Positions 9,152 to 64,000 of a stretch of 64,000 nucleotides of DNA are shown here, one piece after another. Every line of letters begins with the position of its first letter. The stretch's first letter is position 1. A program made the position numbers and the translations under genes. The DNA is from Gammaproteobacteria bacterium (GTDB lineage: Bacteria > Pseudomonadota > Gammaproteobacteria > GCA-001735895): the NCBI GenBank assembly GCA_029862125.1, contig JAOTXY010000002.1, positions 35,343-99,342 on the forward strand, read 5' to 3'. Below the pieces are notes generated by a model. The model was not told where the DNA came from. It was given only the letters and a program-made list of their open reading frames with translations, and did not search any database.

Positions 9152-10810
9152 ATGAAACCTTCTTATTCGATCGATTTTCTCGCTATGTCTGGACACGATC
9201 CACATTTACTACGCAAGACCAACCTGTTTAACGCATGGTTTGTCAGACTCGATAAAGAAAAGCGTAACCTGCTGAAAAGCGGCAGGTTTCGACTGTTGTT
9301 CCTGTCCTTTTCAATTCTGATCCTATTGTTGTTGAACTTGATTGGCGTGGTAAAGCCCGATAGCCCCATTGCCATAAGCTTACAAGATTACGTCGCCTGG
9401 ATGCACACTTTGGAAATCGTGCTACTGCTGTTGCTGTTCTGGGAGATCTGGCGTGAATTATTGCAGCCGTTGTTGAGACTGTGCGACTGGGCGGATTTGA
9501 TGCGCGGCGTCAATTTCGATGCACAGGTCGAGCTGAGCGGCGATAGCGATTTTTCCGAGCTGGCCCGCGACATCAACATGCTCGGCAACATGATTAATCA
9601 ACTCTCGCGCGATACCGATGTCCAATTGCAAAAGCATACCGACTACATTTCGCGTGAGTCGAGGTCACTGGCGATACTTTACGATGTTGCTTCAAGCATA
9701 AACGCGTCGCGTGACCTTAACGAACTGTTCAAAAAATCGCTCGAATCCCTGTGCAAAAACTTGAACGCCAGCGCCGGAATTATTCGCCAGTTTATAGGCA
9801 AAAATAAAAAAGATATCGTCGCTTCTCACGGCGATATAAATCATACCTTTCTCTCGAGCGCCGATCACTTTCTGTCGATTGACTATCCATCTAGTGATAT
9901 CAAGCTCGATAGCATTTACCGCATTGACAGCCTTGACCATGAAACCGTGTTTGGTCTCGGTAGCACGCATCGACAGGAAAAGGTGCGGGTGCTGTCGATA
10001 TTGCTGCAGTACCGCGAAGGCATACTCGGTGCGATTCATTTATTTTTTCCAGATGATAGCTCGGTCGATCTTGAGGACTACAACGAGCTGCTGCTGAGCA
10101 TCGGTCAGCACCTCGGCAGTGCGGTGGAGAAGTTTCGCCTGCTCGAGGAAGAAAGCGAATTGCTGGTAATGCAGGAACGCACCAGGCTATCGCACGAACT
10201 GCATGATTCGCTGGCACAAACCATCGCCAGTTTGCGCATCCAGATTCGTGTCATCGACGAGACTTTTCATTCGAATGATGAAAAAGCCATCTGGCACCAG
10301 ATGGAACGCATCGAGTACACCATCGATCAGGCCAATCACCAGTTGCGCGAATTAATCGCCCATTTCCGAGTGCCGATAAACGATCAGGGGCTGATTTCGT
10401 CGATCGAGGATAACATTCGCCGCACCCAGGAAGAAATGGGCATCCCGGTCTATTTTCAAAACGAATGGCCGGAGCAGGAATTTAGCGCGGAAGTCGAACT
10501 CAACGTGCTGCGCATTGTTCAGGAATGCCTGGTTAATATCCGCAAGCACAGCCAGGCCGAAGTCGTTCGGGTATTACTCAGTTACCGTGAGGGTGACAAT
10601 ATCGTGTTAATCGAGGATGACGGTATCGGGTTTGAAGAATCATCGATCATATCCGAAGGAGGACGTCACCTGGGCCTGAATATACTGCGCGACCGGGCAA
10701 GAGAAATTAATGCCAGCATCGAAATCGAAAGTGAGCCCGGTGATGGAACCCGGATACACTTGCAGTTCAAAGCCGAGCCGGTAAAGGCGCTACTCGAATC
10801 CACTGGCTGA
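9152..10810 (+). CDS. NarX/UhpB-type membrane sensor histidine kinase (TM, HAMP/GAF-like, HisKA_3, HATPase)
   Basis: RTRLSHELHDSLAQTIASLRIQ phosphoacceptor motif; DDGIGFEE and GDGTRIHL ATPase motifs; two N-terminal TM segments. Confidence 0.9.
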   Translation: MKPSYSIDFLAMSGHDPHLLRKTNLFNAWFVRLDKEKRNLLKSGRFRLLFLSFSILILLLLNLIGVVKPDSPIAISLQDYVAWMHTLEIVLLLLLFWEIWRELLQPLLRLCDWADLMRGVNFDAQVELSGDSDFSELARDINMLGNMINQLSRDTDVQLQKHTDYISRESRSLAILYDVASSINASRDLNELFKKSLESLCKNLNASAGIIRQFIGKNKKDIVASHGDINHTFLSSADHFLSIDYPSSDIKLDSIYRIDSLDHETVFGLGSTHRQEKVRVLSILLQYREGILGAIHLFFPDDSSVDLEDYNELLLSIGQHLGSAVEKFRLLEEESELLVMQERTRLSHELHDSLAQTIASLRIQIRVIDETFHSNDEKAIWHQMERIEYTIDQANHQLRELIAHFRVPINDQGLISSIEDNIRRTQEEMGIPVYFQNEWPEQEFSAEVELNVLRIVQECLVNIRKHSQAEVVRVLLSYREGDNIVLIEDDGIGFEESSIISEGGRHLGLNILRDRAREINASIEIESEPGDGTRIHLQFKAEPVKALLESTG

Positions 10811-24197: not shown

Positions 24198-25961
24198 TCA
24201 GGCGATACCCGGGTTGCCGGCCACGTTTTTAATTTTCGGGGTGTTCAACTTCTTGATGCGCGCGATATCCTCGCGGCGCAGGTAGTCTGCAACCACGTCC
24301 CAGATCGGCGCACCCGGTGACTCCGAACCCACGGTGGCCCAACCGGCCACCTTGTAATTCTTAGCCGCTTCAATGCGGCTACCATCGTCGAGCTGCATGT
24401 CTGCGATTCTCTCGCCGGCGCCGGCACCCGGATCGATACTGTAATCGAGGCCGCCGAGGCGAACCATGTCACCGCCCTGCTGGTAGTAAGGATCCTTGTT
24501 GAACAGGTTGTCGGCAACGTCTTCGAGAATCAGTTTGATGTTTTCACCGGTCATTTCACGCACGTAGGTTTCGGGATAGGTAATGCAGGTTTGGTCCATG
24601 ACGTGTTCCATCGTGATTGCTTGTCCCGACAACACGGTGGTACCCCAGCGGAATCCCGGGGACAGCGATATCTGTGCATCGCCCTCGACCCGCAGGGCAT
24701 CGCAGATCACCTGGTCAAAGGTGCCGTTAAAATTCCCACGTCGAAACAACAGGTTTTCAGCAATAGTTAGCTCCTCTTGCAACTTCGGCAGGTAAGGCTT
24801 GCGGACCTTTTCCACATAAGCGGACATTTCAGCATCCGCATCGAGTAAATTTGAGAAAACCGGCAATAAGCGATAACGAAAATCGCGCAGCTTCTTACCC
24901 TTGTAATCCATATCCATAACACCCAGGAACTTGCCGTTGGAACCCGCGTTGGTAACCAGTGTTTTGCCTCCCGGGTTCGATACGGGTATCGCAGCCGGCA
25001 CACCATCATGCGTATGACCACCAAATATCGCGTCGATGCCACTGACTCGAGAAGCCATCTTGAGGTCCACGTCCATACCGTTGTGTGACAGCACGATCAA
25101 TCCATCGGGGCTTTCCTCGTCGCGTGCCTGCTCGACGATTTCCTGCATATCGCCTTCGTTGATGCCAAAGGTCCAGTCCGGGATAAATCGTTGCGGATTT
25201 GCGATCGGCGTATACGGAAACGACTGACCGACCACGGCAATGCGCAAATCCCCCATTTCCCGAATCGTGTAGGGCTTGAAGACATGCCCGCTGTCTTCAT
25301 TGAAGTCACCCAGATCGGCAAGCTCATAATCAAACAGTGCATCTTCCTTGACCTTGCAATTCTGGCTGACGAATTCGCCAGCGAAAATCTCGGCATTGTC
25401 GAGGATTTCAGTCGCCAGGTAGGTAAATTCCCAGTGACCGGTCATGACATCAACCCCGAGTAAATTACAGGCCTCGACCATATCCCGACCCCGGGTCCAG
25501 AACGCGGTACCCGAACCCTGCCAGGTATCCCCGCCATCGAGCAGTAACGAGCGCCCCTGCGCATATTCCGCACGCAACTTCTTGACCAGGGTTGCGAGGT
25601 GGGCAAAGCCACCAACCTTGCCAAAGGTGCGCGCGGCTTCCTGAAAATTGATGTAGGTATAGGCGTGCTCCTCGATACCGCCATGCGCAATGCCGTACTG
25701 TTTGACCAGGTTTTTACCAACCAGGTGCGGCGCCTTACCGAAAGCGTCGCCGATGCCGAGATTGACACTGGGCTCACGGAAATAAATCGGGTTAAGCTGG
25801 GCATGACAATCGGTGAAGTGCAGGATGCGCGCATTGCCGAAGGCAGGCATATCATAGAGCCTGGAATCCTCGCTGCTGGCCGAAAATCCAGCTCCGGGAA
25901 ACAGTCCTGCAGCACCGGCAAGGCCCAGCAGCCTGATAAATTCTCTACGGTTTAAGTTCAT
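24198..25961 (-). CDS. soxB: SoxB, thiosulfohydrolase (5'-nucleotidase/metallophosphatase family)
   Basis: Tat signal NRREFIRLLG; HFTDCHAQLNPIYFREPSVNLG, LLLDGGDTWQGSGTAFWTRG, GGHTHDGVPAAIPV. Confidence 0.95.
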   Translation of the reverse strand: MNLNRREFIRLLGLAGAAGLFPGAGFSASSEDSRLYDMPAFGNARILHFTDCHAQLNPIYFREPSVNLGIGDAFGKAPHLVGKNLVKQYGIAHGGIEEHAYTYINFQEAARTFGKVGGFAHLATLVKKLRAEYAQGRSLLLDGGDTWQGSGTAFWTRGRDMVEACNLLGVDVMTGHWEFTYLATEILDNAEIFAGEFVSQNCKVKEDALFDYELADLGDFNEDSGHVFKPYTIREMGDLRIAVVGQSFPYTPIANPQRFIPDWTFGINEGDMQEIVEQARDEESPDGLIVLSHNGMDVDLKMASRVSGIDAIFGGHTHDGVPAAIPVSNPGGKTLVTNAGSNGKFLGVMDMDYKGKKLRDFRYRLLPVFSNLLDADAEMSAYVEKVRKPYLPKLQEELTIAENLLFRRGNFNGTFDQVICDALRVEGDAQISLSPGFRWGTTVLSGQAITMEHVMDQTCITYPETYVREMTGENIKLILEDVADNLFNKDPYYQQGGDMVRLGGLDYSIDPGAGAGERIADMQLDDGSRIEAAKNYKVAGWATVGSESPGAPIWDVVADYLRREDIARIKKLNTPKIKNVAGNPGIA

Positions 25962-57534: not shown

Positions 57535-58032
57535 TCAACCATCCCCCTGGTCCGCGCTCGATTTGTTTGACTTGATATCGCGCTGTATGGATTCGAATTC
57601 GATATCGGTCTTGTTAGCTGAACCACCGGCCCGCGGCTTGCCCACAAACCGTTCTCCCTGTTGCTGTCGCCGCATCGTATCGTCAACCCTCTGGTGCAGT
57701 AACTTTTTATAAGGCAGTCGAAATGAGCGTGGTACCAGTTGATCCCCGTCGAGATCCCTGACCCAGAGGTAGATAGCGCCGGCTTCATCGCTTTTCAGAT
57801 TCGGTTCAACCACGATGCTGCTAATCAATTCAAAGTTTTGGGGTATCCCGTCTGCCGCCGGCCAGCCGAGATAATCCTGTAATGAATCGTAATGCCAGAG
57901 GTAGAATCCGAGACACAGGAATGTCAGCACCATCTTGAGTCCTGGACCAATTTCACTTCTGAAGATGGCGAGCAGTACCAGGAACAGCAAAAATACATAG
58001 GCCAGGGCCAATGCAAGTAACGAGGCGGTCAC
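57535..58032 (-). CDS. Hypothetical membrane protein, third gene of ExbB/ExbD-like operon
   Basis: N-terminal TM helices; overlaps upstream gene. Confidence 0.65.
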   Translation of the reverse strand: MTASLLALALAYVFLLFLVLLAIFRSEIGPGLKMVLTFLCLGFYLWHYDSLQDYLGWPAADGIPQNFELISSIVVEPNLKSDEAGAIYLWVRDLDGDQLVPRSFRLPYKKLLHQRVDDTMRRQQQGERFVGKPRAGGSANKTDIEFESIQRDIKSNKSSADQGDG

Positions 58033-58670
58033 AGCGGTTGCTCCGATTCCGGCGCAAGCTGTTCGGGATCAAGCCGATACGGAGTCAGTATTTTGGATAA
58101 CCGGTTCATGGCAACGATCTCACCGTTGCCATCGAGCTCGAAGCGCAGCACCGTCTTTTCATCATCCACCTTGTTCAGGACGAGTTGATCGATATACACC
58201 AACCGCAGCACCGGGTTGACCTTTTCAATCTTGATCACCGTTTTAACTGGTTGGTTGCTAACCGACTGGTAGTAATGCAGGTTGACTATGTATTCCCCCG
58301 AAATAATGCCGCGAATCGTAACCACTTCCTGGTTGATCGGATGCACCACTTTCCTGCCGTTGATCATGACCGTGTCATTCAGATCGCCGCGGTCGTCGCG
58401 ATCCAGGTTCAGCCAACCGGCTTCTTTACGCAAGTAGGAAACCGTTTCCCGGTAAGGGTCCTGAACCCAGAGGTCGACATCGTCGGGCTGATCCTCGGGC
58501 CAGCTCACGGTGATGATGTACTCCGCCTTGTAATTAATATTGCCAAGTTTGGCGATCGGGTTCATGAACAGTATCGCAATGAAAAATAACAGGGTAAAAC
58601 CAAGCAGGGTATTGAAAAGCAGATCGGTAAACGGATCTGCCAACTGGTGATGGCGACGGGTTACTCTCAC
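58029..58670 (-). CDS. ExbD/TolR-like protein with enlarged periplasmic domain
   Basis: Single N-terminal TM with Asp (DPFTDLLFNTLLGFTLLFFIAILFMNP); periplasmic DVDLWVQDPYRETVSY. Confidence 0.65.
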   Translation of the reverse strand: MRVTRRHHQLADPFTDLLFNTLLGFTLLFFIAILFMNPIAKLGNINYKAEYIITVSWPEDQPDDVDLWVQDPYRETVSYLRKEAGWLNLDRDDRGDLNDTVMINGRKVVHPINQEVVTIRGIISGEYIVNLHYYQSVSNQPVKTVIKIEKVNPVLRLVYIDQLVLNKVDDEKTVLRFELDGNGEIVAMNRLSKILTPYRLDPEQLAPESEQPL

Positions 58671-59320
58671 CGGGTCGTGACCTGGTAGGTATGTTCACGC
58701 ACGTCATCGAGCAGGTTGTCTACACTCCAGTCGAGCAGCTGGTACTTGATGTTTAGCAGCACCCCGCAGCTCATACCGGTCAGGGTTGTAAACAATGCGA
58801 CCTTCATCCCCCCGCTCATCTGCGTCAGCAGTTTCTGCATCACGTTGATATCGATACTGTTAAGGTCTACCAGCGAACCCAGCATGAAAATAAAACCGAT
58901 CACGGTTCCGAGCAGGCCCAGCTTGAGCATCAAATCGGCAACCACGTAACCAAACCTGAATTGCCCGCGGCAGCGACCGTCAAGCACATCGATCAGCATC
59001 TCGCTGGAGTCGTCGCTTTCGCTGCTCGGCTGCCGCAGTAGCGAAAAGTAGCGCTGCACGTTACTGCGGAGTTTGCCCGTGGAGGTATCTGCGTTCAGGT
59101 CATTGCTTTCGATCGACAGGTAATATGACACCAGCATCACGTGTAAGCTGGCGACGAAGTAAATCCCCAGGATGGCCCGTGAAATGAAGCTGTAGTCCTC
59201 GGCCAGCAGAACCTGCAATAATCCCGCGTCGGTCAGCAGGTAAATAATAAAGAGCTCGATACCGAGCAGGCCGCTACAGAACAATAACAGGCCGAAAGGT
59301 TTTTCGATAATCAATTTCAT
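58667..59320 (-). CDS. MotA/TolQ/ExbB-family proton channel protein
   Basis: LGLLGTVIGFIFMLGSLV...MSGGMKVALFTTLTGMSCGVLLNIKYQLLD. Confidence 0.82.
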   Translation of the reverse strand: MKLIIEKPFGLLLFCSGLLGIELFIIYLLTDAGLLQVLLAEDYSFISRAILGIYFVASLHVMLVSYYLSIESNDLNADTSTGKLRSNVQRYFSLLRQPSSESDDSSEMLIDVLDGRCRGQFRFGYVVADLMLKLGLLGTVIGFIFMLGSLVDLNSIDINVMQKLLTQMSGGMKVALFTTLTGMSCGVLLNIKYQLLDWSVDNLLDDVREHTYQVTTR

Positions 59321-59453
59321 CGCAATTGTCTCTCCCCTCTTGCATGCATATTAAACCGAGAAAAGAGCGCTGCAACCGTAAACCCTCAAAAATTCGATCA
59401 CCGCGAGGATATATACCCAATAACCCCACGGTCTATCCCAGAATAGCTATTCG

Positions 59454-59475
59454 TATATAAGGATTTACTAATATA
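59454..59475 (+). promoter_or_regulatory. Operator-like palindrome TATATAAG-N6-CTAATATA overlapping TATAAT -10
   Basis: Same half-sites and 6-bp spacer as 54006-54027; TATAAT at 59472-59477. Confidence 0.65.
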
Positions 59476-59506
59476 ATGGCGCTTCAACTTTAAGGGGGAT
59501 CTAATC

Positions 59507-60127
59507 ATGATCAAGCAATATATCTTTACATTAATACTTTTTATAGGCCTGACCAGCGGCAGCGCGTTCGCAGCCGATGCACCGGCCACTAACCCGGCTC
59601 AATCAGCCGAAATGACCAACCCGTTTGCCTGGATGGGCATGATGAATGCCGGGGTTCCGAACGTTCAACACCTGAACCTGGCACGTCCTGAAGGCTACCA
59701 GGTCTTCATGAATCCGATGAACTACGGACAATTCATGAACCCGGCTACTTATGGCCAGTTCATGACACCACAGTTCTACATGCAGTTTGCCGATCCAAAT
59801 AACATGATGGCCTGGATGAATCCCGCGGCTTATAGCGCATACATGAATCCGGCTTCTTACATGCAGATGATGAATCCAATGGCATACATGCAATTCATGA
59901 ATCCCGGCACCTACATGCAGGGTATGAACCCGGCTAACTACCAGGTATTCATGGATCCCAATACATATATGTCTTGGATGAACCCGAATGCCTACATTCC
60001 GGGTGGAACTGCCAGTGCGGGTTATGCTAACCCGGCTGCAGGCTTTAACTGGTTCGATCCAAATGCGTGGACCAGCATGATGACGCCACAAGCGCAATTA
60101 CAGCCGCAGCAGCAACCACAGCAGTAA
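59507..60127 (+). CDS. Secreted Met/Asn/Pro/Tyr-rich nonapeptide repeat protein
   Basis: Signal peptide (ILFIGLTSGSAFA-ADAPA) then 11 contiguous 9-residue units PxxYxxFMN, then a Q/P-rich tail. Confidence 0.9.
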   Translation: MIKQYIFTLILFIGLTSGSAFAADAPATNPAQSAEMTNPFAWMGMMNAGVPNVQHLNLARPEGYQVFMNPMNYGQFMNPATYGQFMTPQFYMQFADPNNMMAWMNPAAYSAYMNPASYMQMMNPMAYMQFMNPGTYMQGMNPANYQVFMDPNTYMSWMNPNAYIPGGTASAGYANPAAGFNWFDPNAWTSMMTPQAQLQPQQQPQQ

Positions 60128-60142
60128 TGAAGTAATTGAAAT

Positions 60143-60220
60143 GTGAATGCAAAAAAGGGAAGCTCGGCGCCTGAATTAAAAGCTTAATTAAGGACGGCAA
60201 AAAGCTTCCCGCATTCGCAC
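60143..60220. other. Nested long hairpin downstream of the repeat protein
   Basis: GAATGC(60145-60150)/GCATTC(60211-60216), GGGAAGCT(60157-60164)/AGCTTCCC(60203-60210), inner CCTGAATTAA(60170-60179)/TTAATTAAGG(60184-60193). Confidence 0.75.
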
Positions 60221-60496
60221 TTCTCCTCTAGCTGGTGCCGGCACTGTGGCAGGCACCCACTCCGCGGGATCAGCAACCAGGCTACTACGGGTACCAACAA
60301 TTACCCGGCAACATCGGTACTGGTTAAAATCAAGAGCAACGTTGGCCTACCTGAAGGTTACCGCTAAAATCATGTATCGATGACAATTAGTGGTAAATTG
60401 ATATGAATCAATGTATAGACTGCCGGTAGGCATCACAGTTAGTATTCAGTTTTTACCGCAGATTTCGCTAACCGTTGCAGATGAGGCATAGCTAAC

Positions 60497-60907
60497 ATGT
60501 ACAATACAATTCTAGTACCCATCGATATGGGCCACGTGGTTGAAGGCAAGTCAATCATCGATCTAGCCGCACAACACTCTGCCGAGGGCGCGAAGATAAT
60601 CTTGCTCAATGTTGTGGAGGAAATCCCAACCTGGGCAGCCGCCCAGTTACCCGCCAATATAATCAAGGATTCGTTTGAAGCCGTTCGGACCGAGATGAAG
60701 GCTATCGCCAACGCAAGCGGCATGAAAATGGACGTGGAAGTCCGAGCCGGTCATTCTTACAACACTATTCTTGATGTAGCCAAGGAAAAAAATGTCGATC
60801 TGATCATCATTGCATCGCATAGCCCCGGTTTGCAGGATTATTTTCTGGGTTCAACCGCGGCCAAGGTCGTACGCCACGCTAACTGCTCCGTCCTGGTAGC
60901 TCGCTAA
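60497..60907 (+). CDS. Universal stress protein UspA family
   Basis: MYNTILVPIDMG...; C-terminal GSTAAKVVRHANCSVLVAR. Confidence 0.95.
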   Translation: MYNTILVPIDMGHVVEGKSIIDLAAQHSAEGAKIILLNVVEEIPTWAAAQLPANIIKDSFEAVRTEMKAIANASGMKMDVEVRAGHSYNTILDVAKEKNVDLIIIASHSPGLQDYFLGSTAAKVVRHANCSVLVAR

Positions 60908-61067
60908 ACGCAGAATTCAACACCATCCCGGCGTTCCTTGAACAAGCCTTCGGCGCCTTTCTATTCCAACGACGCCTCCCGCCGGGGCCCAATGCTGATC
61001 CCGATTACGGTCGGCAAATCAGTAATAAATTTTCTGCAGACCACACATTTTGAACGGGTAACCAAAC

Positions 61068-62442: not shown

Positions 62443-63690
62443 CTAAACGCCGGCGGCCTTGGTAGCTTTGCCGTGCCAGCGTTCGACGACATCACGCATC
62501 GCAAAGCAGCGTTCGAGCTGGGCTAAATCGGGTGCTCCGAGACCAGCATCGATCATGTAGTCGCGCCAGGTCGCCGTCACCTCGAGCACCGCGTCGCCGA
62601 TTTCGTGGGCGAGTTCGTCGGCCACACCCATGCGCTGCGCCGCGGCCTGGATATTGTCGGCGGTCGGGGTGCTCCCGAAAGGGCCGATCGCGATGGCATG
62701 CGACCCCTGCAGGCTGAGCTGGGGTACGATATCGTAGCCGGGAGAGAACGAATAGTCCGAAACCGACGATTGTTTCATGAAGGCGTGGTTGCGCAGGTGA
62801 TCGTCGGTGTTACCGATCGCGACGTTGAACAGCATGCGGCGAAACACGACCGCGCCGAGGTCGCTGGTCAGGTGACCGATGCGCTTGCCGAGCTGGGTAA
62901 GGCCAGGGTACGACATCGTCGATTCGTCGATCTCGGTGATGTCGAATTTGTTGATCAGACTCGCTACCGAGACCAGGTGATGCTGCTCGTCGGGGGACTG
63001 GTCGAAGCGTTCCACCAGTAGCACCGGCCCGCGACCGGTTTCCGTGAGGTCTACATCCGGCACCTCGATGCCGGCTTCGCGCGCCATGCGCATCGATGCG
63101 AGCTCGACCCGGCACATATCGACCAGGTCCGAGTCGCGATTGAATTTCGCGATCCATTCGCGGCCGTCGTGTTCGATGAGCGACTTGGGTCGCGCGCCGC
63201 CGATGCCGCTGCCGTGGAAAAAGAAAGGCTCCAACGCTCGGTCGACTTCGTTGCCGGACTCGATATCATCGGCAATATGTTGCAAATGTACCAGGTTCTC
63301 GAACGGGCGCTCGGGCGTCGGTCGCACCGGGTCGTCGATATTCGGCGTAAAGTGCAATGCGCCCACGCCTTCACCCGAGGCGGCGAGCAGGAATTCCACT
63401 TGTGTGACCGGAGGTGGTTGGCGGGTCTTGGTGAGCCAACGCCTGCCCCACTCGTCGGGCCCTGCGTCGATCAGAACACCGAACATCGCCGGCGTGTCGC
63501 GGGTGCGATGTTTGACATGGATGTCTCCGTTCAAGGGCAGGTTGATCGGGTCGAGGGCAAATGATTGCGGATGATTGATATAGGCTTTCGCGTACTTGAA
63601 GCGGCCGGCCTTGTCGTCGACAATCAATTGACCGGCGAGCAAGATCGTGCCGTCGCCGAGGTCCGCGTGGATGAAGAGTTTCTCTGTCAT
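62443..63690 (-). CDS. hipA: HipA-type serine/threonine kinase toxin
   Basis: GSGIGGARPKSLIEHDGREWIAKF; NVAIGNTDDHLRNHAFM catalytic motif; adjacent XRE gene. Confidence 0.9.
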   Translation of the reverse strand: MTEKLFIHADLGDGTILLAGQLIVDDKAGRFKYAKAYINHPQSFALDPINLPLNGDIHVKHRTRDTPAMFGVLIDAGPDEWGRRWLTKTRQPPPVTQVEFLLAASGEGVGALHFTPNIDDPVRPTPERPFENLVHLQHIADDIESGNEVDRALEPFFFHGSGIGGARPKSLIEHDGREWIAKFNRDSDLVDMCRVELASMRMAREAGIEVPDVDLTETGRGPVLLVERFDQSPDEQHHLVSVASLINKFDITEIDESTMSYPGLTQLGKRIGHLTSDLGAVVFRRMLFNVAIGNTDDHLRNHAFMKQSSVSDYSFSPGYDIVPQLSLQGSHAIAIGPFGSTPTADNIQAAAQRMGVADELAHEIGDAVLEVTATWRDYMIDAGLGAPDLAQLERCFAMRDVVERWHGKATKAAGV

Positions 63691-64000
63691 CAGATGTCGA
63701 ACTCGTCGGCATCCGACGCAAGTGGTGCGCGGGCACGTTTACGCATGGCATTACGACCCAGGGCCTCACCCAGGGTATCGTCGCCCCGGGCGATGACTCG
63801 ATCGAACGCCGTCGGTAGCCCGAGCACGTCGAGCAGCGCAAGGTAAGCGCCGACCGTGATGTGCGGCGAGCCGGCTTCGACTTTTCTGATCGAGCTCTCG
63901 GACAGCCCGGCTTTGGTTGCAGCGTCCGCCTGGGTCCAGTTTCTGAGCAAGCGGGCTTCTTTCAAACGCGCACCGAGAGCGGCCAATGAACCCAGGGCTG
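63690..64000 (-). CDS. hipB: HipB-like XRE antitoxin, probably extends beyond window
   Basis: LKEARLLRNWTQADAATKAGLSESSIRKVEAG HTH; listed TTG start at 63986 is doubtful because the frame stays open to the edge. Confidence 0.82.
   Translation of the reverse strand, partial: ALGSLAALGARLKEARLLRNWTQADAATKAGLSESSIRKVEAGSPHITVGAYLALLDVLGLPTAFDRVIARGDDTLGEALGRNAMRKRARAPLASDADEFDI

Follow-up and report, generated by a model that had tools for sequence, protein, structure and literature searches.

A secreted nonapeptide-repeat protein family associated with periplasmic sulfur oxidation in uncultured Gammaproteobacteria

Introduction

What does a secreted protein that consists largely of tandem nine-residue units do in a gammaproteobacterium whose genome also carries dsrA and soxB? 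The question is raised by a gene at positions 59507–60127 (+ strand) of a 64,000-nucleotide stretch of contig C187 of genome G000 (hereafter, the window). A preliminary description put the product forward as a candidate sulfur-globule or envelope structural protein, with methionine-based copper binding as the main alternative. How elemental sulfur is held outside the cytoplasm and handed to rDsr is an open question, and the coat proteins described so far are from a small number of cultured lineages. Allochromatium vinosum keeps its zero-valent sulfur in periplasmic stores, whose coat consists of repetitive proteins that are exported by the Sec route and have prolines at regular intervals (PMC10386293). 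SgpA–C are described as extremely hydrophobic, and SgpD (Alvin_2515), which is encoded next to a hydrophobe/amphiphile exporter, has been reported almost only in Chromatiaceae (PMC10386293). Here we ask how the repeat protein of the window, together with its homologues (family A), relates to sulfur oxidation and to these proteins.

Results

An exported protein with a strict nine-residue register

The gene encodes 206 amino acids and is preceded by a purine-rich, Shine-Dalgarno-like stretch, AAGGGGGAT (59492–59500, + strand), with the ATG 6 bases downstream; a promoter and terminator scan at the gene returned no signal above chance. Residues 1–22 (59507–59572, + strand) have the n-region, h-region, and AxA pattern of a cleavable Sec-type signal peptide such as the Sgp proteins carry, which as judged by eye would end in SGSAFA with cleavage before AD. 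A basic n-region, a hydrophobic core, and an AxA-like site are retained by nearly all of the 35 homologues in alignment A2 (the smaller alignment, A1, has 21 members), and the protein is thus probably exported. The mature protein (20.7 kDa, pI about 4, GRAVY −0.48) is nearly uncharged and rich in Met, Asn, Pro, Gln, and Ala; Met makes up 14% and Gly 6% of its residues, and it has no lysine and, as first described, no cysteine.

The sequence and alignment A2 show 11 contiguous nonapeptides of the form PxxYxxFMN at residues 61–159 (59687–59983, + strand), followed by a partial twelfth unit, PNAY (59984–59995, + strand). An isolated unit, PFAWMGMMN, lies ahead of the array at residues 39–47 (59621–59647, + strand), and in alignment A2 is the cognate of an (N)xFDPxxWM motif of the homologues. 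The array stands exactly where the preliminary description had placed it, and the units that flank it are as described there. That description did not include a conserved motif C-terminal to the array, FNWFDPNAWTSMM (residues 180–192; 60044–60082, + strand; alignment A2), of the form FNWFDPNAWxxMM, which is similar to the isolated N-terminal unit.

The register claimed for the array is indeed strict: the mature sequence contains a run of 12 prolines at a spacing of exactly 9, compared with a maximum of 6 in 20,000 shuffled sequences, and in its repetitiveness and regular proline spacing the protein resembles the Sgp proteins. From the first position to the ninth, the unit reads P (96%), A/N, T/N, Y (78%), M/A, Q/A, F/W, M (78%, at position 8), N/D. 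The units share only 53% identity in DNA, indicating that the array is old. Moreover, in pairs of homologues with under 65% identity, repeats share 59% identity when they occupy equivalent positions and 41% when they do not, which indicates that each repeat is individually conserved and that the length of the array is defined, with no concerted evolution. Against orthologues with 61–90% protein identity, dN/dS is 0.04–0.16 for the whole gene and 0.01–0.09 within the array, the latter ratio coming only from the comparisons in which dS was not saturated (it was in three of six). The array is therefore strongly conserved under purifying selection and is not slippery, low-complexity sequence.

The preliminary description had proposed structure prediction as a check. 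AlphaFold2 run on alignment A2 (mean pLDDT 62.7, about 70–80 over the array) models each unit as a single helix of about 7 residues, with a break at each N–P step, and we hypothesize from this model, whose confidence is modest, that 7-residue helices linked through N–P turns form a ladder along the array. A Foldseek comparison of the model with the PDB found no significant match. Should the model hold, the array would be of structural interest in its own right, as a 9-residue, single-helix repeat that has no PDB counterpart.

Local history of the window copy

The DNA downstream of the repeat gene records a deletion. By blastn, window 59321–60269 corresponds to 9815–10764 of the related locus L002, and window 60269–61000 to L002 13263–13994; about 2.5 kb has thus been lost from both the window and L001, with the junction at about 60269. 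On either side of it lie the relic 5′ end of a thioredoxin-like gene (60190–60269, + strand; start ACG, in-frame TAG; PF13098 in the intact relative L006) and the relic 3′ end, with downstream flank, of an hlyD-like gene (60269–60420, + strand; blastn to L002). Six relatives (L002, L004, L006, L008, L009, and L026) have the thioredoxin-like gene 3′ of the repeat gene, and where the locus is long enough, tolC- and hlyD-like genes follow it. Since selection on the repeat gene persisted after the deletion, the gene is independent of the thioredoxin–TolC–HlyD operon.

Upstream, and divergent from the repeat gene, is a three-gene set (57535–59320, − strand) whose place is conserved in the genus; it encodes a MotA/TolQ/ExbB-like protein (58670–59320) and two membrane proteins without a Pfam match. 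A hipBA-type pair, a HipA-like kinase (Pfam HipA_C, 3e-39) and an HTH protein, occupies 62446–63998 (− strand). Within the genus, an RND pump gene lies about 7 kb upstream of the repeat gene. We considered this exporter as an SgpD-like anchor and rejected it: of 80 dsr+ genomes, about 45 have an orthologous RND gene (over 60% identity), and the 17 readable neighborhoods held no low-complexity secreted neighbor. The linkage of this pump to family A is lineage-specific.

Family A is nearly confined, as sampled, to sulfur-oxidizing lineages

Family A is an undescribed family. Searches with it against Pfam, NCBIfam, and PDB sequences returned nothing above cut-off (for the PDB, nothing at E ≤ 0.001), and the only Pfam match, to JmjN (PF02375), was dismissed as chance, as it covers just 15 residues at 22.7 bits, below the gathering cut-off of 26. 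A search of open-access journal literature found no paper describing the repeat or the family. A scan of GTDB representative contigs recovered 20 relatives, all from gammaproteobacterial metagenome-assembled genomes or symbionts, including Olavius algarvensis Gamma3. The host genome itself carries three paralogues, on contigs C187 (the window copy), C44, and C185. Cysteine is missing from 31 of the 35 members in alignment A2, and the family conserves neither catalytic nor redox residues.

Of 369 evenly sampled gammaproteobacterial genomes, 118 (32%) have dsrA and 7 have family A; all 7 are dsrA+ (Fisher p = 3.0e-4, or 3.2e-3 for the five outside genera), although these tests count genomes as independent and so overstate the significance, the independent lineages numbering about a dozen. 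A further eight family-bearing genomes, taken from the GTDB contig matches and including two from the host's own order, are likewise all dsrA+, as are all 12 family-bearing genomes outside the host's genus, and no member was found in 348 other genomes sampled across the phylum. Either dsrA or soxB, or both, are present in 28 of 29 family-bearing genomes. The hosts of family A are thus organisms that possess reverse-type dsr and oxidize sulfur in the periplasm, and its homologues are not found mainly in genomes lacking sulfur oxidation, a pattern that would have spoken against the original proposal.

The expected contrast between genomes with and without dsr held in the class sample but not within the host's own order. 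There, among 41 genomes, 33 have dsrA and 17 have family A, and dsrA does not predict the family (14 of 17 genomes with it and 19 of 24 without it are dsrA+, p = 0.56). The three dsrA-negative genomes with the family are drafts, 71–94% complete, and two of them have soxB. Conversely, 111 of the 118 dsrA+ genomes in the class sample do not have family A. Sulfur oxidation is therefore nearly necessary, and far from sufficient, for the presence of the family. Absence of soxC is expected where sulfane sulfur is stored and not oxidized on SoxY. The gene is absent from 19 of 22 family-bearing genomes tested; however, it is also absent from 6 control dsr+ genomes, and its absence is therefore not discriminating.

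Copies of family A in five lineages lie among sulfur-oxidation genes

In 5 of about 12 lineages, no more than about 10 kb separates a copy of family A from fccAB, soxYZ, soxB, or a gene for a TsuA-like transporter. By a rough estimate, with about six such loci per 4-Mb genome, a 20-kb neighborhood would include one by chance in about 3% of cases, and five linkages in twelve is far above this expectation. The C44 paralogue of the host has as neighbors fccA/fccB (FCSD_central, 3e-48), soxY (3e-29), and soxZ (5e-27), amid a DUF302 gene, a rhodanese, a TlpA-like redoxin, and several cytochromes c, and its orthologues in L013, L014, and L060 have the same setting. In G054, two copies of family A accompany soxYZ, a TsuA/YeeE transporter gene, DUF302, and two further families, c10 and c14, described below. 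The order in G253 is family A, DUF302, c10, TsuA-like, soxB (TIGR04486, 824.6 bits), rhodanese, soxYZ, and a SoxA-type cytochrome. One copy in G410 adjoins fccAB and c14 and the other is near ATP sulfurylase, and in G413, fccAB, DUF302, and c10 are followed by family A at the contig end. DUF302 genes also occur within sox operons of other sulfur oxidizers (PMC5248467).

Several copies lie away from sox and fcc genes. No known sulfur gene lies closer than 20 kb to the window copy; on the same contig, soxB is 34 kb distant (24201–25961, − strand; 66% to the SoxB of L052; TIGR04486, 843.7 bits at G000:C187:59567–61294), and dsrA (G000:C187:32090–33301) is located about 2 kb outside the window and 62 kb from the repeat gene. 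G001, G021, and G029 repeat the order dsrA–soxB–family A within a single contig. Across about 30 family A neighborhoods, no copper homeostasis gene was recurrent.

Companion families

Three kinds of protein recur beside family A, of which c14 is co-inherited with it. Proteins of family c14 are secreted and rich in Met, Trp, and Tyr, with DP/NP-x2-Y/M-x2-WMM repeats and two invariant cysteines. In the class sample, c14 was found in 8 of 369 genomes, 6 of them shared with the 7 that have family A (p = 5.8e-11), and in the host's order in 15 of 41, with 14 shared with the 17 that have family A (p = 2.6e-7). Seven of the eight c14 genomes in the class sample have dsrA, and the eighth, G133, has soxB. 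The two genes are neighbors in G009, G010, G054, G127, G250, and G410; c14 loci include L048:7088–7768 and L011:5181–5852, and c14 is also found on contigs C21 and C92 of the host. The two families are alike in being secreted, in their short-helix repeats capped by NP or DP, and in the genomes that they occupy. They differ in that c14 has a period of about 13 residues and the two invariant cysteines, whereas the period of family A is 9. The c14 model (pLDDT 68.5) has helices of 11 residues that recur every 13 residues, and neither its sequence nor its fold has a significant match in the PDB (E ≤ 0.001). A profile comparison aligned only 27 columns of the two families with a probability of 93, in low-complexity sequence, which does not establish homology.

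Family c10 comprises secreted, Met-rich proteins with an MDPxxW motif and one CxxCH haem-type motif, to which two lineages add MMNPMMGM tandem repeats; they are possibly Met-rich monohaem cytochromes. They are encoded at L048:10601–11590, L052:11061–11849, L057:8199–8717, and L020:9103–9684, adjoining DUF302 and sox/fcc genes. The DUF302 proteins beside c10 and sox/fcc genes (L057:5196–6002, L048:11675–12703, L052:9938–11023, and L020:7671–9059) have Met-rich N-terminal parts. Neither c10 nor c14 matches Pfam or NCBIfam, and the two, as related NP-repeat or Met-rich proteins, are probable partners of family A. The G413 member of family A (L020:9803–10153), which is cut off by the contig end, has a Gly/Tyr-rich N-terminal stretch, QGAYPGMGGYGGMGG, before its NP repeats.

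Discussion

The present study describes a family of repeat proteins that is confined, as sampled, to dsr/sox Gammaproteobacteria, is repeatedly encoded with periplasmic sulfur-oxidation genes, and is co-inherited with c14. It is likely that family A serves periplasmic sulfur oxidation, presumably by binding or scaffolding zero-valent sulfur or the enzymes that act on it. The explanation that best accommodates the data as a whole, to which we give an even chance, is that it is an exported scaffold protein of the periplasmic zero-valent sulfur stage. Specifically, the protein would be a Sec-exported scaffold of defined length, periplasmic or periplasm-derived, in which about a dozen 7-residue helices stack, each capped by an Asn/Asp–Pro turn. 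It would have ladders of Tyr/Phe/Trp and of Met side chains and carry hardly any charge. It would act once sulfide or thiosulfate has been oxidized to zero-valent sulfur outside the cytoplasm and awaits transport to rDsr, most likely helping to form the protein layer or scaffold by which this sulfur is bound and packed; its function would compare with that of SgpA–D, although its family would be a different one.

The nearest rival is that family A organizes or serves the periplasmic Sox/Fcc/cytochrome c assembly, as an enzyme scaffold, a sulfane-sulfur carrier, or an electron-transfer partner, with no role in globules. The closest recurrent neighbors, DUF302 and c10, lie beside genes for SoxYZ, FccAB, and c-type cytochromes, DUF302 genes reside in sox operons elsewhere (PMC5248467), and a defined array length with individually conserved repeats fits specific protein–protein contacts. 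However, family A has no conserved catalytic or redox residue, and several copies are distant from sox/fcc genes; we consider this reading rather unlikely. We regard as improbable the proposal that these are Met-rich periplasmic Cu(I) buffers or metallochaperones, for example for the respiratory chain. Met-rich copper proteins combine a high Met content with regular Met spacing, and family A resembles them in both; the Met at position 8 could form a ladder, and c10 has its own MMNPMMGM repeats. Yet the array Met is replaced by Ala, Leu, or Phe in some homologues, alignment A2 shows no invariant His or Cys copper motif, genes for copper resistance or oxidase assembly do not recur nearby, and the association with dsr and sox would be left unexplained.

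A surface or envelope structural protein (a sheath, adhesin, or matrix component) could be common by coincidence among lineages of marine sediments and symbionts, which often oxidize sulfur. Such a protein might well be secreted, repetitive, and multicopy, some matches do come from symbiont genomes, and the window copy adjoins MotA/ExbB-like and OmpA-family genes; but coincidence would have to account for five independent sox/fcc linkages and for dsrA in all 12 genomes outside the genus, and family A was found to have no anchor, sorting signal, or surface domain, so that this reading, too, has little probability, slightly less than that of a copper protein. Least probable by far is that family A belongs to the RND/TolC/HlyD export system encoded around the window copy. 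It is suggested by the pump upstream and the thioredoxin–TolC–HlyD genes directly downstream in the host's genus, and by the exporter beside SgpD in A. vinosum (PMC10386293). It is largely refuted by the deletion of the thioredoxin, TolC, and HlyD genes in the window lineage, which left the repeat gene under strong selection; in addition, the same RND gene lacks such a neighbor in the 17 other dsr+ genomes inspected, and the C44 and C185 paralogues have no adjoining RND gene.

Is the preferred scaffold of zero-valent sulfur, then, a globule coat? Family A and SgpA–C are alike in being small, Sec-exported, and repetitive, with regularly spaced prolines, dsr-type hosts, and several copies per genome. 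SgpA–C are described as extremely hydrophobic, whereas the protein encoded in the window has a GRAVY of −0.48, 6% Gly, and a fixed 9-residue array. SgpD shares with family A a Sec signal, repeats, helices predicted by AlphaFold, and an exporter neighbor, but is distinguished by a P-X2-P pattern and by two helices of greater length in place of the strict 9-residue period; family A also occurs in other lineages, and its exporter link is lineage-specific. A fixed, position-specific array length is moreover unlike a simple polymeric coat, and since 111 of 118 dsrA+ genomes do without family A, it is not a general globule protein. Because it lacks the extreme hydrophobicity, and presence on globules is the decisive criterion, we do not file family A as an Sgp; it possibly works like one. 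The original globule or envelope proposal is thus upheld in its link to dsr and sox, including fcc/sox linkage in five lineages, and weakened by the negative GRAVY of the protein, its independence of dsrA in the host's own order, and its presence in a minority of dsr+ genomes. That family A is a coat or scaffold protein of stored sulfur globules is plausible, at a little short of even.

These results bear on sulfur handling beyond the few cultured lineages. Family A would mark the same step, the holding of elemental sulfur and its delivery to rDsr, in uncultured oxidizers such as the gutless-worm symbiont and its relatives. We suggest, tentatively and as the less likely outcome, that family A, c14, the Met-rich CxxCH proteins, and the DUF302 proteins together make up a separate apparatus, restricted to certain lineages, for storing or carrying periplasmic zero-valent sulfur in uncultured dsr/sox Gammaproteobacteria. 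It would be an alternative to the SgpA–D coat, built on a repeat fold of which the PDB has no example as yet. Family A brings named partner genes with it and could serve as a metagenomic marker of sulfur handling.
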